Below are positions 1 to 64,000 of a DNA stretch of 64,000 nucleotides, in pieces; position 1 is the first letter of the stretch; every line of letters starts with the position of its first letter. The position numbers and the translations under genes were made by a program. The notes below the pieces were generated by a model, which worked only from the letters and a program-made list of their open reading frames with translations, searched no databases and was not told the origin of the DNA. This stretch comes from Tetradesmus obliquus (Eukaryota; Chlorophyta; Chlorophyceae; Sphaeropleales; Scenedesmaceae), in assembly GCA_030272155.1 (NCBI GenBank), contig CP126192.1, positions 6,854,501 to 6,918,500 on the forward strand, read 5' to 3'.

Positions 1-304
1 CAGGGCGTCCAACCTGTGCTGGGCAGCAAAGCAAGTCAACCTCATGGTTGGGGGCGCAGGTGCGGCTGCTGCACACGACGAGCTGCAGCAGTGTGCACCA
101 AGCTTAAGCGCAACAGCTGTGGCCTGCATGGGAGTCTCAACGTGCCTGCAGCCATTGCCCAACCTCAAGTTGGGAGGCGCAGCTGCAGCTGCTGCACGTG
201 CAGAGTCTCAAATTGCATGCAGCCATTGCTGCGGCCGAGTTTCGCGTCATGGTTCTCTGTGTTGCTTGCAGTGGCTGACTCATTGCATCGCTGCTGCTGT
301 GCAG
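1..304 (+). other. Intronic or upstream sequence of the GH9 gene
   Basis: No exon was recognised before the acceptor at 303-304. The stretch holds an imperfect direct repeat (about 33-78 and 157-204: an AACCTCA-GTTGGG core followed by a CTGCTGCAC-rich part). It is probably an intron of the cellulase gene, because the first recognisable exon starts in mid-codon and deep inside the GH9 domain. Confidence 0.5.
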
Positions 305-3300
305 GCCGCAGCTATGTCGTTGGCTATGGGCCCAGTCCCCCTAAGAGCCCGCACCACCGCCAGTCTGCATGCAGCGCGGTCTACAAGGAGCCCTGCAGGG
401 CAGACAGCAGGGGCACCTGCTGCGCCGGGGAGTCAGGTGCGTGGAGTTGACGTTGACATAGATATACAGTCAATTGCATGCAAGCAGGCTAGTAGTGCTA
501 CTAGGTGAGCGTAAACACGTCATTTTCGTGGCGCTCAGGTGAGGAGATCTCCACTGGTGTATGCATACGCACATGTGATCCACAGGCAAGCGACTAAATG
601 CTGCAAATCTCCTGCTGACATGCTGGCGGCTGTACACATCCACAGGCGTGGGCCAGGGCGGCTGCTGCAACGAGCCCAACTTCTTCAACAGCCACACGGC
701 CCTGGTGCAGCTCAGCGGTGCATTGGTTGGGGGTCCCGACAATGCAGACAACTTCCCAGACAGCCGGCCAGACTACCAGCGGAGCGAAGTGGTGAGTTTG
801 CTGCAGCATCTGCAACTTGAGGCATCTGTGATGAGCAGCAAGCAGTACTGCATGCCTGATTGCCTGCAGCCAGAAACATGATGGTGTGATGCCATTGATG
901 TTGAGCTGGGGATGTAGCAGCCGTTTCCTGTGCGCCGAGCTGTGATATGGTCACTCACCTATGCGCTAAGCACTCACAGCAAAGCACGTGCCTGCTGCTG
1001 CTGCCGCTGCTGCATGCCATGTCAGGCGCTGGACTACACTGCTGCCTTCGCCGCTGCGGTGGCTGGTGTTGCTGCCTTCAATGCACAAGGAGCGCTGGCA
1101 ACATGCGGCAGCAGCGGTGAGGCTAGCTCTGTGTTTCATCTGAGCGGCGGAGGGCCGGTGCCCTGTGTGTTGTCTGCCTGCTGTGCAGAATGGCTTAGTG
1201 TTTCAGCTTGTGACAGTCTGTGCCTGGCAGCCCAGGCAAACCTTCTTACTGCGTGCAATTGGTAAATACGCAATCAACGTGTGCCAGGTATGTACCTACC
1301 AGACCCATACGTAACATGCACTTGTGTCACCAAGCTGCTGCTGCTGCTGCTGCTGCTTTTTGACAGGCGGCACGCCCCCTCCTGCTTTACCCCCCTCCCC
1401 GTCCCCAGCCCCAAACCCTTCCAAGCCCCCAGCCACACCCTCCCCATCACCACCACCAGCCAACTCCCCTCCTGTAGCTACCCCCAGCCCTGCCCCACAG
1501 CCGCCCAGCAGCAGCTGCAGCACCAGGCTGCCTGCCTGGAGTGCATGTGGCGGCAAGGGCTTCGACTGCAAGCTTCCGGCTGGCAAGTGCACAGATGCAG
1601 CCTGGGAGGTGGGTGTGTGGTCATTGATAAATCACACACATTGGCGATGTCAATGCTTTTGTAGCTGCTGCTAGTGCTGCTGCTGCTGCTGCCCGAGGCG
1701 TGGACCTGATCAGCAAGACATGCAGGCGGCAGCAAACGTATCGCATGTACCGCATGCGCTGAAGACCTGCTGTCACCATAACCATAACCATTGCTGCTGC
1801 TGCTGCTGCTGTTGTGTATCAACTCTACCGTGCAGGGCCACTGCTGTGCCTCAGGCTTCACCTGCCAGCGCAGCAACGAGTGGTACTGGCAGTGCAGGAC
1901 AGGACCGCCAAGCAGCAACAGGGTGGAGCAGCCAGCGCCTGCACCGCCGACAGCATGTGCTGCCGTGCTGACTGAGTGGGCGGGGTGTGGTGAGTGCCTT
2001 GATTGCTGCATGGTCTGCGCTGAAGATGCGTCACTGTTGCCAGTGGTTGTGCAGCTGGGGTTCTGCCGGCACAATGGTAGAACATGCTAGCCGCTGGCAG
2101 TACAGACAGAAACCTGGGATAGCACTCTTGTACCTAGAAGTGAAGACTCATCGGCTTCTGTGTGAACAGAAATGCCCAGCTGGCCAATATGCATGTCGAG
2201 AGAGTTGCTCAGAATGATTGAGTTGTTGAGCTTACGCTGTTGTCCTGACGCAGGTGGCCGCGGCACCACCTGCCCGAAATCTTTGCAGTCAGCGGGCCAG
2301 TGTGCTGACGCACAATGGAAGGTATGGCCAGAATTGCCTGTACAGCAAGTTGTGGTACTGTGTACTTGAGTGACAAAGATGAACGACAAACAATCCTGAT
2401 CTGTTTGCTGCAATGCTTGCCCTCATACTATTCCGCTCTGCCGGCAATGCCTGCTGTATCGTTGTCCTGGGCCACCAGCACAGGACAGGGCTGCGCACTG
2501 TTGCTGCGTTTTGCCCAGATGTACTGCAATGGCTGCTGTGCTGCATTGCAGGGCTACTGCTGCGCTGCCGGCTTGAGCTGCAAGCGGCAAAGTCAGTGGT
2601 GGTGGAGGTGAGCAGTCGACATGCGTGTCACAAGCAAAGTGCTGCATACGTGCTCTTGTCACACTCTGTTTGCATTGCTTCAGGGTGGTCCAGCAGTGCA
2701 CAATATTTGCGCTGCTGGGCAACACCTGCATGCATAATGACCTTGTTCACGGCATAGCTCAATGACGTGTCCCTTGGTAGATGGCTGACAAAGTCAGGAA
2801 TTGACAGCGTAAAGAAGTTTAGCAGCCGGCAACACAGCAATACTGTTGGCCACGCATGCAACAGGACCATCACGCTACCAGGCTGCCTAGCTCATCTGCT
2901 TGCTGCCACACCAGCAAACACTGCATGCCTTCTAACCTGCTGCAGCTGCCTTGCGCAAGCACAGCCACAGCCCTACACTCTGTGACTGCTAGCACCTGCG
3001 TGCTCATACACTGCATGCTTTGTCTGCTGCCCTCTTTGTGCTCGCTGCAGCTGTCAAAAGCCTCGCACCGCTGGTACCGCAGCAGCCTCTGCAGCGTCTG
3101 CCGCCCTTCTAGAGCCAGCAGCTGCTGCTGAAGCCCCTACACTGCTGCCACAGGCACCAGCGTCAGCCACAGAAGAGCAACAAGCAGCACTGACAGAACA
3201 GCCTACAGAGCAGCCGGTGGAGCTGCAGGTCGCTGCAGCTGTGAAGGCAAATGTGGCAGCAGTAGAGGTGCCTGTTCCGCCTGCTGCCAGCTGCAGCAGG

Positions 3301-4188
3301 CCAGCACCGGCCTGGGAAGCATGTGGGGGCCAGGGCAGCTGCCCTGCAAGCGTCCAGCAGGCAGGCCAGTGCAGCGACGCTGTCTGGGAGGTGGGGCTGT
3401 CTCAATCATATGCCGCTGACATCTGCACTTTGCTTTGCAGCCAGCGCACGCAGCACGACCTTGATCACAGTATAGTGGCAATCGCCATGGGGTCATGCAC
3501 CACTTGCACGTCCATCAGCTGTAAAGGCTGCTTGCCGCGCAGTGCGTTCGTACTACAGAACAGCAGCTTGCATCCCCGTGTGCAACGACACAGTGCGGCG
3601 TGACATTCACATGCGTTTTGGGACCTGCCTGTCCGCATAATCATCGCTGCTGCTGCTCCTGCCTTGCTGTAGGGTCACTGCTGCGCTGCAGGCAGCGTGT
3701 GTGCGCGCAGGAGTGCCGCATCATGGCTGTGCACCCCAGCTTTCCAAACACCAAGCGACACAGGCTCTGGTTCTGCAGTTACGGCTGCGGTAGCAGCAGC
3801 AGCAACATCTGGTGCCGGCTTGGCGTCAGCTGCAGCCAACCCGAGGGTTGATGTGCTGCTGCTGTCAGTTGTGCCGCCTGCAGCATCCGACTGCAGCAAG
3901 GTGCGCCTGTCAGCTACACTGCTGCGCAACGGCAACACTCCTGTGGCTGGCGTCCGTATGTTCTTCACTGCCACTACCACTGGAGGCAAGGCAGCGAGCC
4001 CAGTGACAGCAACGGTGTTTGCAAACACTAATGCAGGTGGTACAGCTACTGCAAAGCTACCTAGTCAGGCTTGCAGCAGTGCAGGTGGCTCTACTGTTGT
4101 CAGCGCGTACACGGCAGCAGCAAGGGCGATGGGGGTCAGGGGTACTGTGGCGGTGCAGTCCAGCGAGGTAACCCTCAACTGGGTGTGA
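305..4188 (+). CDS. GH9 endoglucanase with three CBM1-like modules and Ig-like tail (5' partial)
   Basis: Probable secreted cellulase hydrolysing beta-1,4-glucan. Proposed exons are 305-436, 646-791, 1026-1116, 1367-1608, 1836-1989, 2254-2321, 2552-2607, 3051-3390 and 3673-4188; every junction is GT-AG and phase-compatible, and the stop is TGA. The first exon holds the GH9 His signature (SYVVGYG...PKSPHHRQ). The second holds GALVGGPD and DNFPDSRPDYQRSEV, whose Glu matches the family's catalytic acid. The third (LDYTAAFAAAVAG) closes the catalytic domain. A Pro/Ser linker and three Cys-rich modules follow (PAWSACGG, TEWAGCGG, PAWEACGG, each continuing into G-[HY]-CCA.G..C). These resemble fungal-type CBM1 in their W..CGG start, Cys spacing and aromatic residues. 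The last exon adds about 110 residues resembling a bacterial Ig-like (Big) fold. Most of the catalytic domain and the signal peptide lie upstream of the window. GH9 is certain; the CBM1 and Big assignments are by pattern. Confidence 0.9.
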
Positions 4189-4920
4189 GCAGTACAGGCC
4201 GTACACAAAGCACAGCAGCAAGAGGGTTGGTGGTGCTCAGGGCTTGGTGCTGCGGTGTAGCTGCGGCGCATGCACACACATGCAGGCGTGTGCTGCCTGG
4301 CTTGCATGTGCATGTTGTGCATGTTGCGCGGAGTTCAGCTGTCCTGTCCTGTGCAGGCTGATGCAAGTGGCTGCATCTGCACAGAGCGTTGAGACCGCCT
4401 GAAGGAGCCAAGATTGGCTCTTCACCAGCTTGTGCTGCGTCGCTGGCACTGTGCGCAGAGCACAGGAATGGTGGCGAGGTATACGCAATGCATATGAAAC
4501 TCATTGCCATGCTGCTACTGGCAGCAGAGTTTGTAGGAAGTTGCTTGGGATGCCATAGGCTGTGTGCTGGAGACAACGGATTCACTTGCTGTGCAGTCAT
4601 GTGGGACCTTGGTATAGGTACAGTTTGTTCATGGGCCACTGGTGTGCTCTGCACAGATTTGATCAGCACATCGATCCAGCTAGCGAGCTGCTTGCCACGG
4701 ACATCAGCGGGCACTACGATTTATGCACATGGGTGTCCTGTTACTTCATTGTCGTGTCACTCCTGCAGACCTGCAGTCCTTTTTGTGTGACCAGTCGTGG
4801 CCATCTAGCCAGTTTTGACACCACGCCATGGCTCGGCTACAGCAGCCCTATGATTGCTGCGAGACTTGTTTTAAACAGCATCTCACCTGACGTGTGCTGT
4901 GCGTACTGCATTGGCGCGCC
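4189..4920. other. Intergenic stretch, no gene seen
   Basis: It lies downstream of the cellulase stop codon. Open frames here are short, lack conserved motifs and show no splice-consistent partners. It presumably holds the cellulase 3' UTR. Confidence 0.5.
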
Positions 4921-5197
4921 AACGTTGGTGGCTGCATGCAGTGCGCGTGTGCACGGCTGTTGCACAGCAACTCCAGAAAACGTTGGTGGCTGCATGCAGT
5001 GCGCGTGCGCACGGCTGTTGCATAGCAACCCCAGAAAACGTTGGTGGCTGCATGCAGTGCGCGTGCGCACGGCTGTTGCATAGCAACCCCAGAAAACGTT
5101 GGTGGCTGCATGCAGTGCGCGTGCGCACGGCTGTTGCATAGCAACCCCAGAAAATGTTGGTGGCTGCATGCAGTGCGCGTGCCCACGGCTGTTGCAT
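4921..5197. repeat. 58-bp tandem repeat, about 4.8 copies
   Basis: Copies begin at 4921, 4979, 5037, 5095 and 5153 (each with AACGTTGGTGG or AATGTTGGTGG), a strict 58-bp period. Copies 2-4 are nearly identical; the first and last carry a few substitutions. All copies contain the palindrome TGCATGCA. The fifth copy is interrupted after TGTTGCATA by the insertion at 5198-5309, and its remainder (GCATAGCAACTCCAGAAA) resumes at 5310. Confidence 0.9.
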
Positions 5198-5309
5198 ACA
5201 TTACATTACATTACATTACATTACATTACATTACATTACATTACATTACATTACATGCTCCACTCAACGAGGAGTGGGAACCCCAGTCAGGAGCCAACGA
5301 GAGGCTCAT
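5198..5309 (-). mobile_element. Short retroposon-like element, copy 1
   Basis: It consists of a (ACATT)n tract (5198-5256) followed by a core at 5257-5309. The core forms two hairpins: CCACTC/GAGTGG around AACGAG, and GAGCC/GGCTC around AACGAGA. Read on the minus strand, the core is followed by a (TGTAA)n tail, which is why minus is given as its sense. It sits inside the fifth 58-bp repeat copy and is bounded by TGCATA on both sides (5193-5198 and 5309-5314), consistent with a target-site duplication. No coding capacity. Confidence 0.65.
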
Positions 5310-5646
5310 GCATAGCAACTCCAGAAAGGGAACACAATGGTACAAGTGCACCCGGCAGCTCCACTCTGGGTGGGCTGATGTTGCTTGATGCGCATTGTGT
5401 TTCATTCATTTGATGCATTTGATCTAGTCAGCTGTCTAGACAGCATGTCAGATCTGACATGCAGAGATGCATGTGTGCCGTGCAGCAGCAGCAGCCTGCT
5501 GCATCCTGCTTGGACGAATTTGTGCGCAGCTAGTAGAGTGATAGCATTTGCAATGCTGGCACCAGGTGCACGAGCTAAATATTCAAGGCACACGGCGCTC
5601 TTGGCACACATGTGCTAGTTACACCCATGCACATAGATGGCCCTTT
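5310..5646. other. Intergenic, no gene seen
   Basis: It starts with the remainder of the interrupted 58-bp unit. No exon or conserved motif was recognised. Confidence 0.45.
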
Positions 5647-5955
5647 GTACCACTGTGCTGCAGCCAGGTGCCGCCCTTTCAAGGCTGGTGGAGTATGTAA
5701 CGTGACATAACAAACAGTGTCACGGTGACGTAACGCAGAATGCCATGCACCACTGTGCTGCAGCCAGGTGCCGCCCTTCCAAGGCTGGTGGAGTATGTAA
5801 CGTGACATAACAAACAGTGTACGGTGACGTAATGCAGCATGCCATGTACCACTGTGCTGCAGCCGGGTGCCGCCCTTTCAAGGCTGGTGGAGTATATATG
5901 TAATGTGACATTTCAAACAGTGCCACGGTAACGTAATGCAACATGCCATGTACGG
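5647..5955. repeat. About 100-bp tandem repeat, three copies
   Basis: Units begin with CACTGTGCTGCAGCC at about 5647, 5747 and 5846, a period of 99-100 bp. Each contains CAAGGCTGGTGGAGTAT and a GTGACAT...CAAACAGTG block. The third unit is the most diverged and has a small TATA insertion. No coding potential is conserved across units. Confidence 0.85.
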
Positions 5956-6237
5956 TACGGCATGCCACAACTAAGTGCTTGCCACGGCTAGCGCACACAG
6001 GCTGCAGCATCATGTGAGCGTGCCACTTCCATAAGGTCTACTTGGGCAACGCATTCAAATGCAGCGATGCAAGTGATGCATGCATCATACATGTACGTGT
6101 TACAGCACGCAGTGCAGCTGCTTGCTTCTGCTGTCCACAGCAGGGTGAAGCCTGCACAGCTTATTTAAAACACTTGCCAAAACCCCAAAGAACAGGAGCA
6201 GCCTTTACGCAAGCTTTACTAACTGCCTTCAGCGTCC

Positions 6238-53247: not shown

Positions 53248-54331
53248 GCTGCGTTTGGCAAGAGCGCGAACGTGAAGGTTGCAAGCAAATGGTGTAGCGT
53301 GCGGGATGCTGACAGTAGAGAACAGTGGAATGAAAGTAGCAGGACTTAGCTCAATCCTGATCGCCTACAGGCGTGAAAAATAGACGGCAATTGAGATCCA
53401 GGCTACCTTGGAGTCCAAGGTTGGCGCCTTAGCAGTTTACTCGAGGTTTGCGGCACGGCTTGCCATCATCCAACCATACATTGTATTTGGTGTTGTTTGC
53501 GTGATTGGCATTGCACTCTTGTTCATTTGTAACAGGCAGCGCCTCAATTAGGCTGCGCGATCAGAATCAGCCAGAACATGAAAAGTTGCCACCGCATGCT
53601 GCCAGGCAGTACACTGCAGTGTACAGCTGTACTGCAGCCAATACAATACTTTGAGGATTGAAACCTCCCTCACACACAAGCCCAGCGAGCCGATACTCCG
53701 CTCATGAGCCACTATGCAGTAAGCGGCCAGTTTGCTTCGCACTGCGTCAACTGCAATGCACCACGCTGCCAGACGGATGAAGCACAAAGCAGCAGAAACA
53801 CCACCTGCCAATAAACGTGGCATGGCGTGGCCACCACACCAGTCCAGCCACACACCGTCATTGTGACCGCCTAGCTGGGCAGCAACCACAAGCCACACAC
53901 ATGTGCAGGCACACCGACAGCAAGCAGCAAGGTTAAAGATCCCAGCTGCCAGCTTGCAGACGCACACTGCAATGCACCACGCTGCCAGACGGATGAAGCA
54001 CAAAGCAGCAGAAACACCACCTGCCAATAAACGTGGCATGGCGTGGCCACCACACCAGTCCAGCCACACACCGTCATTGTGACCGCCTAGCTGGGCAGCA
54101 ACCACAAGCCACACACATGTGCAGGCACACCGACAGCAAGCAGCAAGGTTAAAGATCCCAGCTGCCAGCTTGCAGACGCACAGAAATACGGTGACAACTA
54201 AGCGACCAGGACCAGCGGAAACAGGCCCACCCCAGCCCAAGCAATGCACCCCTAATCCAGAAGCAGCTAACACCAGCCAAGCATGCTACTTCTGGCAGCT
54301 GACACATACAACGGCACCACATTCCCCCTGG
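53248..54331. other. Intergenic region between L3 and L4
   Basis: It has a type-A upstream block at about 53409 (TCCAAGGTTGGCGCC) and the 216-bp tandem duplication. No exon was recognised. Confidence 0.45.
53751..54182. repeat. 216-bp tandem duplication
   Basis: Two directly adjacent copies, 53751-53966 and 53967-54182, appear identical by eye. Each contains CACCACCTGCCAATAAACG and CCGCCTAGCTGGGCAGCAAC. A related but diverged single copy lies at 51290-51450. The identity implies a very recent event. Confidence 0.9.
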
Positions 54332-60631: not shown

Positions 60632-63160
60632 ATGCAGCAGCGAGAGAGAGGGATCGTCCAGCAAGGAACAGCTTCTGTGCAACCTCAACAGCACACCACA
60701 GCAGCAGCAACACCACCTTGGTCAGCCAAGCTCGCAACCATGACAGGCCGCATGGTAGAGGCAGTGGACTCGCTGCTGAACAAAATGGAATTGGGCCACG
60801 ATGGCAACAGGAAAGAAGGTGAGCAACAGCACGCAGTGGACGCTGGGATCAGCATGTGCAGCGCAGCATGCTTTACCGACTGCTGCTGCCATGCAATTGT
60901 CCAGATGCAGCAGTGAAATATCTGTATCTTTCTCTTTTGCTTTGGGGCAACGCCAGAGTGCATTCTGCAAATCAGCTGGCTGTGCGCAGCTGATCTAAGC
61001 ATGCAGTCGTGCTGTCAACTGGGGTTGCCACTTGCTCACCGCTGCAATGCAGCACATCAGGCAACAGGTTGTGCATGTGCAGATCACCTGTAGATGCTGC
61101 TCACACATTGCATGCATTTGGCTCTGAGACATCAGAATATTCACTTCTGTGCTGCTTGCTCTTGTGCATTGCCTAGCAGCATGCGAGCAACAAGCAGCCC
61201 ATTGGCCACATGCATGCGGCAGGCTGCACTGCCATGCGCACGTTCAACTGCTCCCAGCGTGTCAATGTGCGACACTTTTATTTAGCACAATCCAAGTCAC
61301 CTGCACCACACTAACACGTATGCACTGCTGCGGGCAATCCATGTCTGCCAACCATCCATGGTGCCTTGCCCCGTCAGGCGGCTGCAGCGTTGCGGCCAAG
61401 ACCCACCCTGATGCCAAGATGCACGCCGTTTCCTGGATGGGCAGCCACAACATGCAGGTCAAGGAAGTGCCACGCCCCATGGTCACAGACCCGGTGAGCG
61501 CTGCTGCTACTACTGCTGTTGCTGCTGCTGCTGAATGCACAAACACGTAGAGCCCGACATCAAACAGAATGGGCAGCCGTGCTGTAGGCTGTGATGGATG
61601 CGTGCAAGCAAGAACTGCTGCACTTGTTGTCAGGTGTAGCGCTGCTGCTGCACATGACCAAAGCGGCCTTGTTATGCACTTGCACAATGCACACAACCCC
61701 GCTGATGCACGCACAAACATATCTCTCTCTGCTGCTGTAATGTTCATGCTGCTGCAGGCCAACGTGCCGCTGCGCGTGACCAACGCAGCCATTTTATGGC
61801 TCCGACCTGCACATGTACCCGCATAGCACGCACACATGATATACCCGATCACGCCTGCGCATCCTGTGCCGCTCTCCGTCTGTTTGCAGGCTGACGTGCT
61901 GCTGCGCGTGACCAACACAGCAATCTGTGGCTCCGACCTGCACCTGTACACAGTGCGGACAGCAACATTGGCCACACCTGATCCTCTGCTGTTTCTGTAC
62001 CTTTTTTTGTCCACAGGCCGATGTGCTGCTGCGCGTGACCAACACAGCCATCTGTGGCTCCGACCTGCACCTGTACGTGCACGGCATGCCAAGCATGAAG
62101 AGCGGCGATGTGCTGGGCCACGAGTTCATGGGAGTGGTGGAAGAAGTGGGAGATGCCGTGACGAAAGTGAAGCGGTGAGTGCGTTGTTTCTATGTGTCTT
62201 TGGATGTGGCTCTTGGACAAAGAGCAGTGATGTGCTGGGTCATGAGTTCATGGGCGTGGTGGAAGAAGCGGGGAAGGCCGTAACCAAGGTCAAGAGGTGA
62301 GTGTTAAGAGGTTCAGAGGTTAGGGGTTAGGGGCGAGGGTTCTGGGCAGCAGCTCTGGGGCTGTAGGGCCACTAGCAAGAGAGTGGCAGAGGAGGTGGGC
62401 AAGCCTTGCTGGGGGTTAGGGTTTAGTTGATCGTCACCACGGTCAAGCGGTGAGTGCGTTGTTGGGGTTTGGGGCTTTGGATCAAGGGCGTGTTCTGTTG
62501 CAGGTCCAAAGTTCAATGTGGTAATGGCATGCCTGGCATGAAGGATGGAGATGTGCTGGGCCATGAGCTCATGTGCGTGGTGGGGGTAGTGGGCGGTGCA
62601 TTGAACCAAAGTAAGCGGCGGGTGCAGGGTTTGGGGTTTGGGGTTTGGGGTGTATGGGGTTGAGGGTTTCAGGGGTATGAATGCAGGCGATGTGCTGGGC
62701 TGCAAGTTTCAAGCGCGTAGGAGGAGGTGGGCAAGAGCGCCCATCAAGCAGGGATCGCACATTTACGTTGCTGCCAATGTGACAACAGTCTGGCGATCTT
62801 GCGCCTAATGCTGGGCTTTGAATGCGACTCAAAGTCCAACTTTAGGCGCCAGGTCGCCAAACTCACCGATCAGCCTAGGGAAACACAGGGCCATACATAG
62901 TATTATGAGTTGCAGCAAAGACATTGCATACTGGGACAGCATCAATGCAACATAATGCGTGCTCACATCTAGAAGGTAGGCCCCCTCGCCACCATGGCTG
63001 GTGCCATACATAGGCGCTGGGTTTCTTCTAGCAGAAATAGGTTGGTACTGGGCACTCCGGAGGGTCCTCAACTCAATCGCCTAGATGTTGTGACAATACA
63101 CAACTGCGCTTGCACACCATAGCGTCCGCGCAGCTGCACCTTGATTGAGCACTGCCTCGA

Positions 63161-63191
<31 letters not shown>

Positions 63192-64000
63192 CGCTGCTGT
63201 TGGCGCCTGCAGGGGTGACCGTGTGCTGGTGGCGTTTGACATTGCCTGTGGGCACTGCTTCTTCTGCAACCACGGCTACCAGAGCAGCTGCGACAGCACC
63301 AACCCCAGCAAGGTGTGTGTTTCTTGTTATGCTTTCTTGTTATGCTTTCTGTTGGCTGTGGAGTGTGAAATAGCCGTACAGTGTCACAGCACAGTTGTGC
63401 TCAAGTAGGTGTGCCAACCAGCTCCTCCAACCATGCAGCCCCGCTGCTTGGTTCATTTGTTTCACGATGCAGGTGCAGGAGTCCATGTATCGCCAGGCTG
63501 CAGGCGGCCTGTTTGACTGCAGCCACCTCACTGGGCGTGTATTAAATGCAAGGGCCCTCCAACCTCATGCCTTACATTTCTTTTGTCTTTGTTGGGCCAG
63601 GCAGCTGGTGGCTTCTTTGGCGTACAGCCACCTCTCATCAATCAATCAATTTCACCTCACATGGTGTGTTTGTATGTAATGCCAAACAACTGCACTGCAT
63701 ATTGCTGCTACTGATTGAATGTTGCAGTTGCACAAGACAATGTACGGCCAGGCAGCTGGCGGCTTCTTTGGCTACAGCCACCTCACATGGTGTCTTTGTT
63801 TGTAACATCAATCAACTGCACTGCAAACTCCCGCTACTGGTTCCTGCAGGTGTCGGAGGCTATGTACCGCAAGGCCATGGGTGGCGTCTTTGGCTGCAGC
63901 CACCTCACATGATATCTATGCTTTAGCACCAAGCAACTCGGTCGATTTCAATGTTGTTCGATGTTTGCGTTTGCAGATTTCGGAGGCCATGTACGGCCAG
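60632..64000 (+). CDS. Zinc-dependent alcohol/formaldehyde dehydrogenase (3' partial) with duplicated exons
   Basis: Medium-chain dehydrogenase oxidising an alcohol or aldehyde adduct with NAD(P). Best exon path: 60632-60818, 61378-61493, 62017-62174, 63213-63312, then one of several copies from 63473 on; all junctions are GT-AG and in phase. Exon 2 gives [21 protein letters not shown], the usual start of the fold. Exon 3 gives [11 protein letters not shown] with the catalytic-zinc Cys, and [16 protein letters not shown] with the GHE signature. Exon 4 has [15 protein letters not shown], the four-Cys structural zinc loop. The following exon type encodes [17 protein letters not shown], as in glutathione-independent formaldehyde-dehydrogenase-like proteins. 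The start is uncertain (also 60740). Extra copies of parts of exon 3 lie on both sides of it, and at least five copies of the SHLTG exon occur before the window ends. The Rossmann part lies beyond 64000. Confidence 0.85.
61758..61950 (+). repeat. Two extra copies of the first half of ADH exon 3
   Basis: Copy X1 starts at 61758 and copy X2 at 61890, each right after an AG acceptor; the full exon X3 starts at 62017. X2 encodes [20 protein letters not shown] perfectly, then diverges. X1 has an insertion at the catalytic Cys (ATTTTATGG for ATCTGTGG) and then a TAG. Spacing is 132 and 127 bp. Confidence 0.85.
62219..62730 (+). repeat. Extra copies of the second half of ADH exon 3
   Basis: Z1 (about 62222-62296) encodes [24 protein letters not shown] and keeps the GTGAGTG donor. 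A short tail copy (about 62437-62455) keeps GTCAAGCG|GTGAGTGCGTTG. Z3 (about 62515-62618) reads [18 protein letters not shown] and is decayed at its end. Z4 (about 62687-62730) keeps only GGCGATGTGCTGGGC. None has a proper acceptor in front. Confidence 0.8.
62299..62680 (+). repeat. Degenerate G-rich GGGTT/TTAGGG-like stretches
   Basis: Short runs such as GGTTAGGGGTTAGGGG (62318-62335) and three GGGTTTGG-type units (62627-62655) lie between the exon copies. They are G-rich on the coding strand and may help slippage or duplication. They are too short and irregular for a telomere. Confidence 0.6.
63473..64000 (+). repeat. Array of at least five copies of the SHLTG exon in the ADH gene
   Basis: Copies: Y1 63473 ([19 protein letters not shown]), Y2 about 63590-63640 (AAGGFFG with a one-base insertion), Y3 63728 ([17 protein letters not shown]), Y4 63850 ([19 protein letters not shown]) and Y5 63977 (ISEAMYGQ, cut by the window end). 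Y1, Y3, Y4 and Y5 each follow an AG acceptor. Spacing of 110-145 bp shows that exon and adjoining intron were duplicated together. Confidence 0.85.

Follow-up and report, generated by a model that had tools for sequence, protein, structure and literature searches.

X1, X2 and X3, three consecutive segments of a dehydrogenase gene of the green alga Tetradesmus obliquus, are homologous to one another at the positions given in Table 1, and X1 and X2 are probably fragments of exon 3 that were left by repeated short tandem duplications. Such fragments occur beside exons in most of the gene loci that were compared, in a strict order relative to the intact exon, and plain tandem duplication followed by neutral decay is not enough to account for the way in which they have diverged. 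The stretch of DNA that was analysed, further called the window, comprises 64,000 nucleotides (C2:6854501-6918500).

The dehydrogenase gene and the copies of its third exon

The gene, which extends from 60740 to 69866 in the numbering of the window, runs beyond its end. A model with 10 exons and nine GT-AG introns of 352-1642 nt was the sole open solution when only GT-AG introns, placed near the homology-defined exons, were admitted; it encodes 442 amino acids, and the intact exons by themselves give this one open frame. Matches to PF08240 (ADH_N, E 2.5e-22) and PF00107 (zinc-binding dehydrogenase, E 6.7e-15) are both over the curated cut-off, and judged by these domains the product is a member of the zinc-dependent alcohol dehydrogenase (MDR) family. 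Its closest solved structure is an alcohol dehydrogenase (4cpd, E 2.5e-62), and the third-ranked solved relative is a glutathione-independent formaldehyde dehydrogenase (4jlw). Intact exon 3 encodes GHE as well as an ICGSDLH motif, which we take to hold the catalytic-zinc cysteine.

In the genome that was searched (104.7 Mb in 17 contigs), a DNA search with positions 61700-62180 (E <= 0.001) gave nothing outside the dehydrogenase gene, and a protein search gave one weaker relative (49%) on another contig; no relatives were found in IMG/VR. The G+C content of the window is 54-63% per 2 kb, and the available part of a genome report on T. obliquus gives 57% for a genome of 108 Mb (PMC5966456).

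Table 1 Exons of the dehydrogenase gene and exon copies in and just beyond the window
Feature	Position	Strand	Basis
Exon 1, with start ATG	60740..60818	+	10-exon model
Exon 2, without copies	61378..61493	+	Gene model and copy search
X1, decayed copy of exon 3 5' 73 nt, frameshifted, Cys codon lost	61758..61831	+	DNA match
X2, copy of exon 3 5' 60 nt, without homologous donor	61890..61949	+	DNA match
X3, intact exon 3, 158 nt	62017..62174	+	Gene model, domain match
3' copy, exon 3 positions 82-156, donor-like GTGAGT kept	62220..62294	+	DNA match
More decayed 3' copy, exon 3 positions 67-158	62526..62617	+	DNA match
Weak 3' remnant, exon 3 positions 88-134	62686..62731	+	One comparison only, outside main copy count
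Exon 4, without copies	63213..63312	+	Gene model and copy search
Copy of exon 5 5' part	63473..63534	+	DNA match
Copy of exon 5 5' part, acceptor not kept	63595..63637	+	DNA match
Copy of exon 5 5' part	63729..63787	+	DNA match
Copy of exon 5 5' part	63855..63909	+	DNA match
E5a, full-length second exon 5	63977..64000, running to 64082 outside the window	+	DNA match, model
Exon 5 itself (E5b)	64142-64247, outside the window		Gene model

An initial annotation of the window had described three homologous segments starting at 61758, 61890 and 62017, each with its own acceptor, and had ranked them as dead (X1), perfect (X2) and full-length (X3). This description was borne out when the full exon (62017-62174) was used as query. 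X2 matches positions 1-60 with 95% identity (E 3.5e-23) and X1 matches positions 1-73 with 82% identity (E 4e-16), and homology between 61758-61820 and 62017-62080, a comparison that had been named as a possible refutation, is clear. AG acceptors precede X1 (...ctgctgcag), X2 (...ctgtttgcag) and X3 (...tttgtccacag). X2 encodes the same 20 codons as X3, with three differing sites that are all synonymous, and then the homology ends, whereas X3 reads on to the end of the exon (...VTKVKR); X1 is frameshifted and its Cys codon is lost. Both copies represent the 5' part only, the donor and the last 85 (X1) and 98 nt (X2) of exon 3 being absent.

The spacing of X1, X2 and X3 is 127-132 bp, and no long simple repeat is present in the spacers. 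When the intron between X1 and X2 is aligned with that between X2 and X3, 43 of 59 positions agree, a value matched by 1 of 500 shuffles, and this residual similarity supports the duplication of whole units; the stretch before X1 is less clearly similar (z 2.0). A 26-nt match at 61643 (77-81%) might be a fourth 5' fragment but is too weak to be included. Degenerate runs of GGGGTTT/GGGTTAGG that slightly resemble a telomere repeat lie between the 3' fragments of exon 3 (window 62310-62690); exact TTTAGGG is absent from the window and CCCTAAA is present once.

The order of exon copies and the probable duplication process

The initial annotation had considered tandem copies of a zinc-ligand exon unusual for a housekeeping enzyme. 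Neither this exon nor this enzyme turned out to be special, as copies occur at six of the 10 exons of the gene and at five of seven other loci. A translated search of the dehydrogenase locus with its own protein already gave extra pieces of several exons, and by DNA criteria the gene holds 23 copies, namely nine 5' fragments upstream, 13 3' fragments downstream and one full-length copy. Exon 5 is preceded by four 5' fragments and the full-length version and followed by three 3' fragments. Exon 8 is preceded by a single 5' fragment and followed by four 3' fragments, of which three are 97-98% identical; of the 10 intron pairs in this array, two have clear similarity (z 3.8 and 4.7) and the rest have z values from -1.1 to 1.6.

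Eight gene loci were compared. They are the dehydrogenase, five peptidase S41 loci, a 2.6-kb enolase stretch and a gene whose translation was recognised by eye as that of a glutamate-cysteine ligase. The dehydrogenase was given, the ligase was chosen for its visible repeats and the other six for other reasons; copies of exon ends are present at the dehydrogenase and ligase loci and at four of the six others. One peptidase locus (L041) was compared with itself only, without a gene model, and had no direct repeats at least 60 bp apart at E <= 0.01. In the remaining seven, which contain 45 exons, 54 direct matches, no inverted ones, and none in one shuffle per locus were found; the exon edges used for the peptidase, ligase and enolase genes are approximations. 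Leaving out one match more than 1.5 kb away (an upstream 5' fragment), 53 copies remain on 29 exon sides, of which one is full length. All 52 partial copies obey the same rule: 5' fragments lie upstream (21) and 3' fragments downstream (31) of the intact exon. No exon copies were found in the enolase stretch, and no repeated segments were seen among the profile matches listed for phosphoglycerate kinase and enolase. A D1 protease exon of this genome is identical over 89 residues to the photosystem II D1 protease of PDB entry 1fc7, a protein of Scenedesmus (now Tetradesmus) obliquus.

The ligase locus also contains a 151-bp array of 4.3 units that are 96% alike (L012 3963-4618; C5, about 1.004 Mb), which carries the 3' end of a glutamate-cysteine ligase-like exon and looks like a minisatellite that has expanded from the edge of an exon. 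Where copies take in the stop codon region of a terminal exon (L012 5515-5584 and L006 9842-9991), they lie downstream of the intact one, in the same order as copies of splice edges, which indicates that the process is not limited to splice sites.

Direct repeats also outnumber inverted ones in random parts of the genome. In a random sample of 17 loci of 10 kb, one per contig, 135 direct and 17 inverted self-matches were present (120 and 15 within 1.5 kb), and 12 loci had at least two direct near matches; one of these, L023, is satellite DNA (279-bp units, 14.2 copies, at 16-3959 and 345-bp units, 5.5 copies, at 4115-6039; C16, about 1.0 Mb). Tandem Repeats Finder reported head-to-tail arrays, many with periods of 100-170. 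Across 28 regions, among them the window with its neighbours, the main peak of spacings is at 100-175 (65 of the 194 that are below 775 bp), and a second one lies at 225-250. The exon copies behave similarly: in 23 of 53 the distance to the corresponding place in the intact exon is 100-175 bp, and in no case is it below 91. Arrays at the random loci are not enriched in coding-like sequence (17 arrays at 10 of the 17 loci, mean percentile 0.52), so that a mechanism targeted at exons is not required and the duplication process seems to be general rather than aimed at exons. A duplication process specific for exon-intron junctions was considered in view of the scarcity of exon-free repeats in the modelled introns, but was rejected on account of these arrays.

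In the mechanism that we propose, a unit of most often 100-175 bp that reaches from the upstream intron into the exon would be duplicated head to tail. The downstream unit would then retain the whole exon, and the upstream unit would be an exon fragment stranded in the intron; a duplication from inside the exon to the downstream intron would leave the whole exon in the upstream unit and a 3' fragment downstream. Selection would remove events after which no unbroken copy of the exon is left or a second one is spliced in, and duplications within an exon or of a whole exon, which change the message, are expected to be lost. Among duplications that straddle an exon edge, the survivors would therefore be those with 5' fragments upstream and 3' fragments downstream. 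The fragments would normally be spliced out with the intron, and the copies would decay after duplication.

Divergence of the copies and its possible causes

Signs of decay are evident: the frame is shifted by a length change in 11 of the 53 copies, and one copy contains a stop. In 13 families with at least two copies, changes on the copy lineages fall 33/29/50 on codon positions 1/2/3, a nearly neutral distribution in which third positions are slightly over-represented (45%, p 0.016 against one third), and the changes that separate the intact exon from all copies fall 2/2/18. Thus, change in the copies is mostly drift, and the intact exon is under constraint. However, two observations go beyond what tandem duplication and neutral decay can explain. 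First, pairwise mismatches fall 80/66/210, so that third positions are favoured 2.88-fold (bootstrap 2.20-4.03, 23 exons), whereas a copy drifting away from a constrained exon should give a value of 1.74. Unequal mutability does not explain this excess, since at positions 1 and 2 G/C and A/T sites differ about equally often (6.4% and 6.9%). Second, the intron halves of the duplicated units have largely been lost. Directly behind the exon end identity is 77%, and at +31 to +40 it has dropped to 26%; ahead of the exon start it drops from 73% to 33%. These values are underestimates, as the comparison was ungapped. In a simulation calibrated on the copies, intron halves of 60 nt stayed recognisable in 52-88% of cases; the observed number of intron-only repeat copies is 8 (7 of them beside an exon or copy) against 53 copies of exon parts, simple repeats having been masked in this count and not in the simulation.

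The copied exon parts extend to the exon edge and the core of the splice site. The AG is kept in 19 of 21 upstream copies (z 7.9; 6.6 with one copy per exon) and the GT in 21 of 29 tested of the 31 downstream copies (z 2.9; 2.2 with one copy per exon), the null model for both ignoring the possibility that homology simply ends at the splice site; altered donors tend to remain within the consensus. Taken together, the third-position excess, the loss of intron halves and the retention of splice-site cores look like what is seen when working versions of a gene are compared. It is therefore conceivable, though somewhat less likely than not, that many copies and the intact exon diverged while both were part of working exons. 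This could have come about through repair or unequal exchange that brought two diverged alleles together, or through continued exchange of sequence between the copies and the intact exon. With low confidence we prefer exchange or repair between diverged alleles, since this would also make events without an exon invisible.

The repeats at the random loci, which may in part involve exons, have a modest three-base periodicity in their mismatches (z 4.2). Among 26 self-match pairs with at least 92% identity and a spacing of up to 320, two are complete tandem repeats, and about half of the remaining pairs have similarity in the flanks and half do not.

Continued gene conversion with the intact exon could maintain the copies and expose damaged ones to selection, leaving the intron halves to drift. 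This would fit the preservation of exon halves and splice-site cores next to lost flanks, and it would fit the observation that the third-position excess is strongest in copies of at least 87% identity (3.6-4.7, against 1.9 below). However, a test for mosaic sequences gave no signal in nine of 10 families, and the tenth (L042 744, p 0.006) is unreliable as it included non-homologous sequence; the nearly neutral changes on the copy lineages also speak against it. We consider this explanation unlikely, and retain the duplication of exon-straddling units, possibly from diverged alleles, as the preferred reading.

A further possibility, which the initial annotation had raised for X2 and X3, is that the extra copies are alternative exons that are spliced into some transcripts and alter the protein. 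X2 preserves the protein over its 20 codons and fits as an added in-frame cassette of 63 nt that ends at 61952 before GTGCGG, the reading frame staying open. Yet the two are not interchangeable: since X1 and X2 copy only the first 60-73 nt, X2, with 20 of about 52 exon codons and no homologous donor, cannot substitute for X3, and its use in place of X3 was rejected. As a cassette it would leave a GTGCGG...AG intron of 64 nt, much below the range in this gene. The case is different for E5a and E5b. Both are 106 nt long (E5a at L006 3977-4082) and have an AG acceptor and a GTGAGA donor; either one alone gives an open frame and both together give an early stop, as with mutually exclusive exons, and their 17 differences fall 3/2/12 by codon position. 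Within the gene, E5a and E5b are thus the strongest candidates for genuine alternative exons. For the copies as a class the explanation is nevertheless improbable, because 52 of the 53 are partial, 11 have a frameshifting change of length, and the register spacings have no excess of multiples of three (16 of 53).

Replication slippage on intronic CTG/CAG repeats is also a quite improbable driver of the duplications. CTG/CAG runs are frequent beside exons in the stretches that were read, and by eye one of the duplications in the ligase gene (L012 1759-1938) seems to join a CAG run, but the spacers of X1, X2 and X3 contain no such run and the unit length is most often 100-175 bp. The initial suggestion of slippage-driven exon birth and decay holds in spirit, as far as local duplication and decay are concerned; slippage on simple repeats is unsupported for X1-X3, given their spacing and the composition of the spacers. 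The fragments might also be seen as complete exons that predate an intron loss; this idea was abandoned, as by eye their inner ends are not consistently bordered by donors or acceptors.

Finally, heterotype false duplication, in which two diverged haplotypes are assembled end to end, is a well documented error (the available part of PMC9516828) and copies with conserved exons and diverged introns would resemble it, but it is most improbable here in view of six distinguishable versions of the exon 5 5' part including the intact one, which is more than two haplotypes allow, the absence of any N in 360,465 letters (overlaps counted twice), the graded decay among copies and the side rule that holds without exception.

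Relation to known systems

Each element of the pattern is of a known kind; its scale is unusual and its order is strict. The comparisons that follow refer to the accessible portions of the papers cited. A single tandem duplication across an intron-exon boundary has been described for a potato RdRp gene (PMC4974935). This duplication, which includes the acceptor and the start of the exon, has the geometry proposed for X1-X3, and differs in being one event in one gene that gave a spliced new intron, whereas the copies described here are many per gene. Pseudogenic exons of mammals, disabled copies that lie close to the parent exon, have been found in 0.4-1.0% of genes; 12-22% of them are on the opposite strand and most have at least half of the parent length (PMC2718932). 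Here, copies occur in 6 of 8 loci, with none on the opposite strand in seven loci, nearly all are fragments, and the side rule is strict, a comparison in which definitions differ, since most copies here are not frameshifted. With proximity to the parent and a frameshift or stop as the definition, X1 would count as a pseudogenic exon and X2 would not.

Tandem exon duplication with mutually exclusive splicing (PMC9013439) offers another comparison. E5a and E5b fit this arrangement, also in having a frame that is open with one and broken with both, whereas the frame stays open when X2 is added to X3. X1 (positions 1-73 of 158), X2 (1-60) and the other fragments are incomplete exons, E5a being the exception.

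The Exonize survey, which uses the same classes of matches as found here, reported that intronic and inter-boundary duplications are commoner than full-exon duplication in vertebrates; lower eukaryotes generally had fewer events, and serial arrays or a side rule are not described in the accessible text (PMC12343006). Gains of introns by duplication of coding sequence have been reported for Drosophila (PMC2891723). In the open-licence PMC literature we found no description of the pattern in this alga, of its scale or of the side rule.

In the available part of a comparison of five algae (PMC5966456), T. obliquus ranks first in mean intron length (462 bp) and last in coding share (15.7%), and duplication of exon edges could help to explain both. 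A more far-reaching view is that such duplication is a major force of gene evolution in T. obliquus, which lengthens introns by placing exon ends on both sides; the stranded ends would then be more than debris and form a reservoir that recombines with diverged versions of working exons and keeps coding and splice sequence alive as introns dissolve, and X2 and E5a would represent steps towards new introns and alternative exons. We put this forward as a speculation that is rather unlikely to be correct.

The lengthening of introns and the origin of new introns and exons have mostly been inferred from rare single events. A genome with intermediates from fresh to decayed in many genes would make the rates, breakpoints and fates of exon-edge duplications measurable. 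There is also a practical side, as automatic gene annotation can be led astray by fragments whose splice sites look plausible.

Duplications of other sizes were noted as well. The window contains a perfect tandem duplication of 216 bp (53750-54182), and between 20000 and 60000 there are long, diverged direct repeats about 1.6-8.8 kb apart that possibly represent a tandem gene cluster. On another scale, two phosphoglycerate kinase genes (C9:4540430-4543682 and C9:4556633-4559885) lie about 16.2 kb apart; they have the same exon layout and near-equal profile scores, and are likely the result of a recent gene duplication.
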